The notes under the pieces are model-generated. The model saw only the letters and a program-made list of their open reading frames with translations, searched no databases and had not been told where the DNA came from. From Cyanobacteria bacterium REEB67 (lineage in GTDB: Bacteria > Cyanobacteriota > Vampirovibrionia > Obscuribacterales > Obscuribacteraceae): 64,000 bases of DNA. A program made the position numbers and the translations under genes. Each line of letters opens with the position of its first letter. Position 1 is the stretch's first letter. Shown here in pieces: positions 59,487 to 62,648 of the stretch. The DNA is taken from contig JAGXAB010000001.1 in NCBI GenBank assembly GCA_018971775.1, positions 62,001 to 126,000 of the forward strand, written 5' to 3'.

Positions 59487-62400
59487 TTAGCCGCCGTGAA
59501 TGGTGGAATGTATCGTCTCGAGCAGGCCATCGATTTTTTGCAGGTCTGTCTGCTCCAGAAATACTGCCAGGATGCCGACATCGACATCGGTCAGCACTGT
59601 CGTCTTGAATTTCTGGCCGTCACCGTTGGTGAGCTCGGTGAGCATGACCATCTGTTTGAGTTTGCCGATCTCGAGCTTTTTGGTGGCCAGATTGGAGGTG
59701 GAAAGCAGTGCGGTGGACAGAGCCCCCAGCATGTCTTTATCCCAGCCAGCGCCGACTGTGGAGGCGATCACCAGGCCGTCGTGGCCGACGATCAGTGAAC
59801 CGGCCACACCTTCATAAGTGTCGATGGCGTTGAGAATATTTTTGATCCCTTCGCCGCGGGCGGCGGAGATGATCTTGGCGGTGCTCAGTCCCGAGCCTAT
59901 TTTTCTGTTCTCACCGCTCTTGATGATGTTTTCGACTGCCTGGACGTCGAGCAATAGCTTGCCTATCGTCTTCATCGTGCCGCCGGTTTCACCACCGACT
60001 TTGGCAGCCGGAGCCTTGGATGAAAGGCGTCCGAATTCTTTTACTTCTTTGTATTTAGCAGGTTTGCCATCAGGCCCGGTGGCAGCCGGTGTGGCTGGCT
60101 GAGCGGCTGCTGGTGTTGCTGATGCTGCTGCGGGCGTTGCTGCCGGTGGTGTGGGTGTGGGAGCGGGTGGTGTGGGTGTGGGAGCGGGTGGTGTGGGAGC
60201 GGCGGGAGCAGCGCTATCATCGCTGCCTGGCTCGCCTTTGACTTTAGCAAGAGTACTGGCGTTGACTTCAAGCTGTTCGCCTTCGGTCAATTCGGAGAAA
60301 ATGTTGTCCAGTTCTTCGCCGAGATTGTCGCCGAACAGTCCGCCTTCGCTGTCCGCCTCGACTTCAGCTTGCGGCGACTCAGCCGCGTCGCGCGCTTGCA
60401 CGGGGGCGGCTTCTGCCAAGGCTTCAGTTTCTGCCGCCGCGACTGCAGATTTAGCGGGCAGTACGTCTTTTACTTCTTTTTGCGCTTCTGGCGGGGCAAG
60501 CTCAGAGAAGATATCATCGATTTCGGAGTCGACGCCATCGCCAAATAGATTGCTCTGAGAATCGTCTGCCGAGGCTTCATCGAAGGCGAGCGGCTCTGCA
60601 CCGGATGCGGTGGCGTCACCACCGGCGGTGGGACTTTCGACTTGCGTCTCAACTGATTTAGCAGTCAGTACGTCTTTGACTTCGAGTTGAGCTTCGGGCG
60701 GGGCAAGCTCGGAGAAGATATCGTCGATTTCGGAATCGACACCGTCGCCAAATACATTTTCACGCTTTTCGTCTTCAGCTTTAATTTCCGCCGGCGCTTC
60801 TTCTTCTAGAGGAGGCGCTTCTTCTAGAGCTGGTGCTTCATCTAGAGCTGGTGCTTCATCTAGAGCTGGTGCTTCTTCTAGCGCCGGTGCTTCTTCCAGC
60901 GCCGGAGCTGCTTCCAGAGCCGGTTCTTCTGACGGTGGGGGGGGCGGTGCTGGAGTCGGTTCGGAAATCAGGGCTACAGGAGCCGTTTCCGCCACTCTGG
61001 GCTGAGCGACGCGTGTCGGTGTGGCGGCGACTTCAGGCACGCCATCGCCTTTAAATACCGTGTCGAGAGTGAGCTCGACAGGCGGCTCGATGGGCTTGGG
61101 CGCTTCGCTGACTCTGGCTGCGACTTCGGTGGCCGGCTCGTCGTCATCGAGGCGATCGAGGAGGCTGCGCAAGCTGTCGGGTTCGTTTTCTTCTTTGAGC
61201 GACTGCGGAGTGGGCATGAGCGGGCCGGAGCCGCTGGCCGAAAGAGCGTTCAGCTTAGTAAAGGTACTGGTGTTGCGACGCTTGACGGCAGCCAATTTAT
61301 TATTGGTATTGCTCGGCGACGCCGTTGTGAAGCCGCTCGGGCTGGCTGCAGCAGCGCTTGTCGGGGTGTTGGAGCTTTCGCCGAGTGGTTGCATGGCCGG
61401 CATCGAGCTGCGCGAGGAGGAAGCGCTGGCAAATGATGAAGAGCGTGTCGAGTCGGTCGGCGGAGCTGCTGGTTCAATTTTTGCTTGAGCTGTATTGGCA
61501 AAATCTTCGGCCGGGGTTGAATAATCAATCGATGCCGGTGTCGAAAAGTCGGTGGCCGGAGCGCTGAAATCAGGAGCGGATTCTTGTGCTTTTGTTTCGC
61601 CAATCGGTTCTTCTTCATCATTGAATTTGTCGAGCAGAGCCGCCACATCGGTCGTCTCTGCATCCTCAGCCGGCAAATCCAGGGAGTCGGCGTCTGCGCC
61701 GAAAGCAAATTGATTGGGAGTCTCGGCGAGAGCGGGGCCTTCGTCTTCTTTGATTTTGGCGTCGAGAATGCTGTCGAGGAAACTGCCGGGAACGTTGTCT
61801 TCGCTGGTGCCGGCCGAATTGGAGTAATTCTCGGCGTTGTCGCTGAGAATATCGGGCAGGGGTTCGGAGGTGTCCGCTTCATTCACATTAATGAATGAGT
61901 TCCCTTCCAGAGCCGGGTCTAGCTTGCTGTCCGATAAATCTTGACCGGGCAGAGGCTCATCGTCCATGCGGTCGAGCAAATTAGCCAGTGAGCCATCGTC
62001 GCTGCCGCGCGATGAACCACTTTTTTCTTTTTTGTCGCGCTCGGCCGGTTCGCGCAGCTGAGGTTTCAGCTCCTGGCCTGGTTCGGTCAGCGAAATCGCT
62101 TTCAAATTTGTCATCGTGCTGCGCAGGGAGCGGCCGTCGGCGGACCGGTCAGCGTAGGCTGCAGCTTTTTCCCATTTTGCCTGAGTCTCGGGATCGACTT
62201 TGACTGCTTTGAGTCGACCCAGTTGCGCTTCGGCAACCTGGGTGTCGGCGAAGCTTGACATCTGTTCTGATTGCATCAGGTTTGTGGCGGCAATGAGAGC
62301 GGCCAGATTCATAATGCCGAAAGCGGCGGCGTTGAAGTGTAAAAGCCAGTCTTCTTGAATGACTTGAAAAGCGGTAATCGTGTTTATATTGGCCAGTACG

Positions 62401-62648
62401 CCGAAAAATCCGATAAAAGAACAGGTGACCAGAAAAGCGCGCATCTGCTGGATGAAGGGGCAGGCGCGGTAGGTCGAAAGAGCAAAAAGAAAGGGCAGGA
62501 TAAGCTGAGCGGCGGCGAATGGTGCGGCCGGCAAGTCGTAAATCAGAACGGCAGTGGTGCCATTGTAAGGTACTCCTAAGACGAGCACCGTTCCAACGAT
62601 TAACGCTCCGATGCCGGCTGCGGATTTGCGGAATTTGAGTCTATACAT
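59487..62648 (-). CDS. Membrane protein with repeated acidic motifs and C-terminal Roadblock/LC7 domain
   Basis: The 1053-residue product has four membrane spans in residues 11-124, then a helical segment, and a long disordered acidic region (about 200-870). The Roadblock/LC7 domain fills about 905-1050 (GVAGSLIVGHDGLVIASTV is its core strand-turn). Roadblock domains, as in MglB, bind and regulate small Ras-like GTPases or form dimer scaffolds. In the disordered region two motif families repeat. LLDR(L/M)DDEP-like sequences occur at about 224, 338 and 496. FGDGVDSEIDDIFSEL occurs at 633 and 702 and a variant at 772. A six-residue PALEEA array lies at 576-617. No GTPase gene is in the window. 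Confidence 0.85.
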   Translation of the reverse strand: MYRLKFRKSAAGIGALIVGTVLVLGVPYNGTTAVLIYDLPAAPFAAAQLILPFLFALSTYRACPFIQQMRAFLVTCSFIGFFGVLANINTITAFQVIQEDWLLHFNAAAFGIMNLAALIAATNLMQSEQMSSFADTQVAEAQLGRLKAVKVDPETQAKWEKAAAYADRSADGRSLRSTMTNLKAISLTEPGQELKPQLREPAERDKKEKSGSSRGSDDGSLANLLDRMDDEPLPGQDLSDSKLDPALEGNSFINVNEADTSEPLPDILSDNAENYSNSAGTSEDNVPGSFLDSILDAKIKEDEGPALAETPNQFAFGADADSLDLPAEDAETTDVAALLDKFNDEEEPIGETKAQESAPDFSAPATDFSTPASIDYSTPAEDFANTAQAKIEPAAPPTDSTRSSSFASASSSRSSMPAMQPLGESSNTPTSAAAASPSGFTTASPSNTNNKLAAVKRRNTSTFTKLNALSASGSGPLMPTPQSLKEENEPDSLRSLLDRLDDDEPATEVAARVSEAPKPIEPPVELTLDTVFKGDGVPEVAATPTRVAQPRVAETAPVALISEPTPAPPPPPSEEPALEAAPALEEAPALEEAPALDEAPALDEAPALEEAPPLEEEAPAEIKAEDEKRENVFGDGVDSEIDDIFSELAPPEAQLEVKDVLTAKSVETQVESPTAGGDATASGAEPLAFDEASADDSQSNLFGDGVDSEIDDIFSELAPPEAQKEVKDVLPAKSAVAAAETEALAEAAPVQARDAAESPQAEVEADSEGGLFGDNLGEELDNIFSELTEGEQLEVNASTLAKVKGEPGSDDSAAPAAPTPPAPTPTPPAPTPTPPAATPAAASATPAAAQPATPAATGPDGKPAKYKEVKEFGRLSSKAPAAKVGGETGGTMKTIGKLLLDVQAVENIIKSGENRKIGSGLSTAKIISAARGEGIKNILNAIDTYEGVAGSLIVGHDGLVIASTVGAGWDKDMLGALSTALLSTSNLATKKLEIGKLKQMVMLTELTNGDGQKFKTTVLTDVDVGILAVFLEQTDLQKIDGLLETIHSTIHGG
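60288..60752 (-). repeat. Three spaced copies of a 16-residue acidic helix motif
   Basis: Copies end near 60752, 60545 and 60335 and encode FGDGVDSEIDDIFSEL (two exact, one variant), spaced 69 and 70 residues apart. In the first two the similarity continues through APPEAQ and EVKDVL, so the unit has been copied as a block. Confidence 0.8.
60797..60923 (-). repeat. 18-bp tandem array encoding PALEEA repeats
   Basis: About seven imperfect copies of a six-codon unit (PALEEA or PALDEA) form an acidic Pro/Ala spacer in the Roadblock protein. Expect length variation between strains. Confidence 0.75.

Follow-up and report, generated by a model that had tools for sequence, protein, structure and literature searches.

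The gene at 59487-62648 on the minus strand of the window, a stretch of 64,000 nucleotides from Cyanobacteria bacterium REEB67, probably encodes a membrane-anchored, multivalent Roadblock scaffold that brings MglA-type Ras-like GTPases to the membrane. The basis for this assignment is the sequence identity of a repeated motif, its conservation, the presence of the GTPase, the residues of the GTPase pocket, and the co-occurrence of GTPase and scaffold. What is new here is the identity that sequence comparison suggests for this motif (motif B), namely an MglB-type MglA-docking helix repeated in membrane scaffolds. No paper joining MglA and Melainabacteria was found in the literature searched, and the papers found that name the MglB C-terminal helix (Ct-helix) describe a single tail per protomer throughout. 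A Ct-helix repeated in scaffolds order-wide, together with separate scaffolds in other classes, offers a testable function for orphan Roadblock proteins.

Architecture of the scaffold gene

The scaffold is encoded by a single frame of 1053 amino acids, for which the start and length were confirmed; the start codon is also kept in L004 and L008. The REEB67 genome, a member of the order Obscuribacterales, is a draft with a completeness of 93.6% and a contamination of 6.2%. The protein runs from four hydrophobic N-terminal spans through a conserved juxtamembrane block and a disordered stretch to a C-terminal Roadblock/LC7 domain, and all of its features lie on the minus strand. The four membrane spans claimed in the earlier note are borne out by four hydrophobic segments within the N-terminal ~127 residues (predicted membrane domain, residues 1-127, 62268-62648), seen in the sequence and in a low-confidence model with helices at 5-28, 41-58, 64-89, and 91-148. 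A Pfam search assigned no family to this domain.

Just after the last membrane span, the cytoplasmic juxtamembrane block (residues 128-196, 62061-62267, SFADTxVAEAQL...RSLRSTMTNLKAISL) is strongly conserved and matches no known family. Its identity is 0.49, compared with 0.35 for the membrane domain, and it is likely another docking surface. The disordered stretch spans ~675 low-complexity, acidic, Pro/Ala-rich residues, close to the ~670 that had been described ahead of a Roadblock/LC7 domain. It contains a further conserved block at residues 450-480 (61209-61301, AVKRRNTSTFTKLNALSASGSGPL), whose conservation is 0.47-0.66, while disordered residues elsewhere average 0.21. The pre-Roadblock segment (residues 864-936, 59841-60059, KEFGRLS...GTMKTIGKLLLDVQAVENIIK) is also conserved and is shared with a paralogue in the same genome. 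These three blocks (128-196, ~450-480, and ~864-936) were absent from the earlier description.

The Roadblock/LC7 domain itself occupies residues 937-1053 (59490-59840), and the C-terminal 183 residues have a mean identity of 0.76 across 18 close orthologues. The profile search proposed for checking the domain supported it: PF03259 scored 22.9 bits on the whole scaffold, just below the cut-off of 23, and 28.8 bits in the genome search, above the cut-off. The best PDB sequence matches of the domain are Roadblock/LC7 chains (1.2e-5). The structure models were built from alignments of six sequences (the scaffold and orthologues), with mean pLDDT values of 40 and 46, too poor for docking. In the low-confidence C-terminal model (pLDDT <50), the element order α-β-β-α-β-β-β-α is visible, and a fold search with this model placed LAMTOR and Asgard Roadblock structures on top, with weak E-values. 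When profiles of the C-terminal domain and MglB were compared, the Roadblock folds did not align, leaving MglB N37 and R98 without reliable placement; because of this, the scaffold was not filed as an MglB. In some genera, two Roadblock units occur in one transmembrane (TM) scaffold chain (L058, L060, L061, L063-L066, L068, L070, and L075).

Gene order around the scaffold is conserved across the order (obg, nudix, pheS, pheT, scaffold, peroxiredoxin, dsbD). The neighbourhood was rejected as a functional clue, as the conserved neighbours are housekeeping genes.

Conservation of the motif repeats

Two families of short motifs recur within the disordered stretch, each in three copies, as the earlier note had reported. 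Motif A, with the peptide SLRSLLDRLDDEP, lies at residue 224 (LLDRMDDEP; copy 1, DGSLANLLDRMDDEP, residues 218-232, 61953-61997) and residue 496 (LLDRLDDDEP; copy 3, PDSLRSLLDRLDDDEP, residues 490-505, 61134-61181). The copy at residue 338 (LLDKFNDEEEP; copy 2, TTDVAALLDKFNDEEEP, residues 332-348, 61605-61655) is degenerate and is not matched by the motif A profile. Motif B lies at residues 633 and 702, where the copies are identical, and at 772, where the sequence is divergent (FGDNLGEELDNIFSEL), giving spacings of 69 and 70 residues. Copy 1 spans residues 632-654 (60687-60755) with the core FGDGVDSEIDDIFSE, which matches the MglB Ct-helix; copy 2 spans residues 701-723 (60480-60548) with an identical core and the same match; and copy 3 spans residues 771-793 (60270-60338, FGDNLGEELDNIFSE).

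Both motif families are conserved across the order and exceed chance: across 18 close orthologues their mean identity to the REEB67 scaffold is 0.58 for motif A and 0.58 for motif B, whereas the other disordered residues reach 0.21. Both features on which the earlier note had staked its reading, a Roadblock profile match and conservation of the motifs in orthologues, were found. To judge from motif A and the other conserved blocks, the scaffold has additional partners beside the one proposed for motif B.

Over 36 codons, motif B copies 1 and 2 differ by nine silent changes and four amino-acid changes, none of the four falling within the 16-residue core. Silent-site divergence with an identical core is as expected under selection on the motif B peptide. 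Recent tandem duplication as the sole cause of the repeats was rejected, since copies 1 and 2 differ silently while the core protein sequence is identical; the retention of repeat copies across genera also stands against it.

Correspondence of motif B to the MglB C-terminal helix

MglA and MglB form the best-studied bacterial Ras-like switch, in which the MglB Ct-helix is the unusual allosteric exchange element. Motif B (FGDGVDSEIDDIFSEL) aligns without gaps to this helix in Myxococcus xanthus (FAEISDDDIDNLFSE), where MglB ends in PFAEISDDDIDNLFSE; the MglB sequence used agrees letter for letter with PDB 6h5b. Against MglB D150-E159, REEB67 copy 1 (VFGDGVDSEIDDIFSE) has 6 of 10 residues identical and 9 of 10 positive in an ungapped alignment, and motif B of relatives reaches up to 8 of 10 identical. 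The likeness was first spotted by eye from the Ct-helix residues given in the literature and was tested afterwards, which calls for caution.

Three separately built motif sets, all from Roadblock proteins, select the same 11-16 residues of MglB. The profile of the TM scaffolds picks MglB 144-159 with 21.6 bits, a score reached by none of 20,000 whole-protein shuffles and by 4 of 100,000 tail shuffles; among 223,011 windows, equal scores came solely from unexcluded scaffold copies and none from unrelated ORFs. The paralogue motif profile, built without any TM-scaffold or MglB sequence, picks exactly MglB 148-159 with 25.5 bits, a score that no tail shuffle (n = 100,000) and no background window (n = 196,462) attains. 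The profile from motifs of other classes of the phylum scores 18.6 bits on MglB (21 of 100,000 tail shuffles and 0 of 197,304 background windows). A PDB search with motif B itself returned nothing useful, and a further search for MglB gave one match in plasmids and none in viral contigs.

The MglB residues aligned with motif B (D150-152, D154, L156, and F157) are those seen in the MglA-bound helix. In MglB, residues 147-157 form the Ct-helix, which binds an MglA pocket made of alpha5, beta2, and the beta2-beta3 loop, with contacts to MglA from D150, D151, D152, D154, and F157, including those of D154 and F157 to K185 and K181 (PMC6785124). Mutating MglB D150-152, or MglA K181/K185 or L64/I67, lowers activity (PMC6785124). 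The Ct-helix drives GDP exchange on MglA (PMC6785124; PMC11016934), and labour is divided within MglB such that the Roadblock dimer acts as the GAP and the Ct-helix provides exchange and MglA-GDP binding (PMC11016934).

Candidate MglA partners and their co-occurrence with the scaffold

Two MglA homologues are present in the REEB67 genome (C177:106384-106986 and C188:33236-33811), on other contigs than the scaffold gene. Over 191 residues, the first aligns with M. xanthus MglA at 1e-79. Among 20 MglA sequences sampled from the order, the pocket is conserved: K181 and L64 are kept in 20/20 and K185 in 19/20, with Arg replacing it once, while position 67 holds I or V in 19/20 and T in the remaining one. 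R53, T54, D58, and Q82 are likewise kept in all 20. A gene with DUF4388 and GGDEF-like domains (L095:5419-7827), a possible regulator, sits just upstream of the second mglA.

Of the 53 genomes of the order, 50 have MglA, and the three without a match are incomplete (65, 66, and 82%); all 22 good genomes have it. It was found in 0/141 sampled genomes from other orders of the class. Scaffold relatives occur in 53/53 Obscuribacterales genomes, with weak matches only in eight, of which three belong to the outer family and five to the same family (mostly incomplete). The scaffold C-terminal domain is present in 53/53 genomes of the order, a count that takes in the paralogue and a stand-alone Roadblock protein, versus one weak match in the rest of the class. 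That motif B depends on the second MglA was rejected, as genomes with a single MglA retain the motif as well.

Distribution of the motif and related Roadblock proteins

The motif B profile gave significant E-values in the REEB67 genome for the scaffold gene only, and its matches across 37 genomes of the order are almost wholly scaffold orthologues. The genome encodes two more Roadblock proteins, a 1533-residue paralogue (C3, L039:5773-10374) and a stand-alone protein of 125 residues (L040:8483-8860). The paralogue, which is conserved in the order, consists of a zinc-finger-like N-terminus (21.7 bits against zf-HC2, below the cut-off of 22.2), a long disordered region, and a Roadblock domain; IDDKAIDRIFSENLG-like motifs occur three times in its disordered part. 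It also contains repeated NDAWGAP and RWDVPIQER peptides, and its zinc-finger cysteines are lost in some relatives.

The motifs of scaffold and paralogue have a common core, D-x-x-hydrophobic-D-x-I-F. A DNA pattern of this core hit 32 sites genome-wide versus 1 for a reversed control; of 30 core sites examined, only five lie in disordered coding regions, three of them belonging to the paralogue and two to the scaffold gene. The search for the motifs in other proteins, which had been suggested for this genome, thus places the core within disordered coding sequence only in these two proteins. The number of motif B copies in TM scaffolds ranges from one to six, and none is recognisable in 6/37 sampled. 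Most genomes of these six do have MglA, and where the paralogue was recovered beside a motif-B-less TM scaffold (G005, G021, and G051) it holds three copies in 3/3 checked.

Roadblock proteins sharing the pre-Roadblock segment are found in several families of other Cyanobacteriota classes. In many of these proteins (L169-L185), MFDxGGLDSALDDLFGD is repeated 3-8 times in tandem, and an N-terminal membrane span is present in five of the tandem-helix proteins. Because other classes have such tandem copies, helix arrays on Roadblock proteins are not the quirk of one gene.

Proposed function and alternative explanations

What we infer for the scaffold concerns its binding, exchange activity, dimerisation, and output. 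The four-span domain would anchor the protein in the membrane, and the long flexible tether would present three acidic amphipathic helices, the motif B copies, as equivalents of the MglB C-terminal helix. Each copy could occupy the MglA pocket at alpha5 and the beta2-beta3 loop. If the M. xanthus case is a guide, such docking would bind MglA-GDP and accelerate GDP release, and the array would raise the MglA concentration locally at the membrane. The Roadblock domain, probably dimeric, would sit at the free end of the tether, where its target could be the switch face of the docked MglA or of a neighbouring one. The paralogue would form a second scaffold with the same motif in three copies and a zinc-finger-like N-terminus replacing the membrane domain. 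The earlier reading of the motif arrays as multivalent docking sites, here for Ras-like GTPases, is well supported for motif B, by the MglB helix match, the two MglA homologues with the matching pocket residues, and the co-occurrence.

By the MglB precedent, three helices could favour recruitment and exchange, and the Roadblock dimer could alternatively be a local off-switch. In a variant compatible with docking, the scaffold would be mainly a GAP platform on which the helices hold MglA near the Roadblock dimer, so that it is switched off at the membrane. In MglB, GAP activity belongs to the Roadblock dimer (PMC11016934), and the MglA switch residues R53 and Q82 are conserved, but the GAP-essential N37 and R98 of MglB find no reliable placement on the scaffold domain, and several MglA-docking helices per chain favour recruitment and exchange; a predominantly GAP role is considered unlikely.

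Docking of motif B on Roadblock dimers instead of MglA, whether those of the scaffold itself, of the paralogue, or of the 125-residue protein, would follow the style of RomR and MglC, and we regard it as rather doubtful. Residues 371-420 of RomR bind a positively charged cleft of the MglC dimer with nanomolar affinity (PMC12719032), the Glu-rich stretch of RomR has itself been compared to the MglB Ct-helix (PMC6785124), and motif B is always found within a Roadblock protein. The residue-level match, however, is to the MglA-binding helix, the pocket residues of MglA are conserved, and RomR requires a tryptophan, W394, that motif B does not have. Still less probable is a convergent likeness to MglB, with motif B serving some unrelated partner as a generic acidic amphipathic docking helix: the motif is short, acidic helices ending in I/L-F evolve easily, and motif A and the other conserved blocks point to additional partners, but the score was almost never reached by composition-preserving shuffles or ~200,000 real windows, three separate motif sets of Roadblock proteins pick the same MglB residues, and scaffolds and MglA co-occur.

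Recruitment of MglA by motif B remains the preferred reading, and classical type IV pili are probably not what the MglA system concerned serves. The gene had also been described as a membrane hub for polarity or signalling; a polarity role would be conjectural, and no PilT-family type IV pilus ATPase of this genome scores over the cut-off. An output through type IV pili was rejected as without support, the sole PilT-family matches being two below the cut-off (L126 and L127) that read as CpaF/TadA-type ATPases beside TadB/C-like genes.

More broadly, and tentatively, early-branching non-photosynthetic Cyanobacteriota may operate an MglA system by means of strings of MglB-type exchange helices tethered to the membrane, with as many as eight helices in a chain and the copy number setting how much GTPase is gathered and activated there. 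We know of no Ras-like GTPase system with such a multivalent, bead-on-a-string platform for exchange.

Comparison with known systems

Ragulator/LAMTOR and the Asgard Roadblock proteins resemble the scaffold in being Roadblock proteins that work with Ras-like GTPases, Ragulator as a heteromeric, lipid-anchored complex; unlike the scaffold, they are not known to have tandem docking helices. The conservon proteins CvnB and CvnD of actinomycetes likewise pair a Roadblock protein with an MglA-family GTPase (PMC4316618), but they are encoded at one locus with a histidine kinase, and nothing of that kind is present at the scaffold.

RomR/RomX and MglC offer a closer parallel in architecture, with an acidic helix ending a long disordered region as part of an MglA/Roadblock network. 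RomR differs in having a receiver domain, one helix, and a key tryptophan, whereas the scaffold has no receiver domain.

MglB (PDB 6IZW, 6H5B) shares with the scaffold a Roadblock/LC7 domain and an acidic helix with the same residues at MglA-contacting positions, and an MglA homologue with the same pocket is present in the REEB67 genome. The MglB family comprises small single-domain proteins of 129-179 amino acids (PMC4316618). M. xanthus MglB has 159 amino acids, with one helix after the Roadblock domain, and coupled MglB shares an operon with mglA; in contrast, the scaffold is a membrane-anchored protein of 1053 amino acids that is encoded outside the mglA operon and places three helices before its Roadblock domain.
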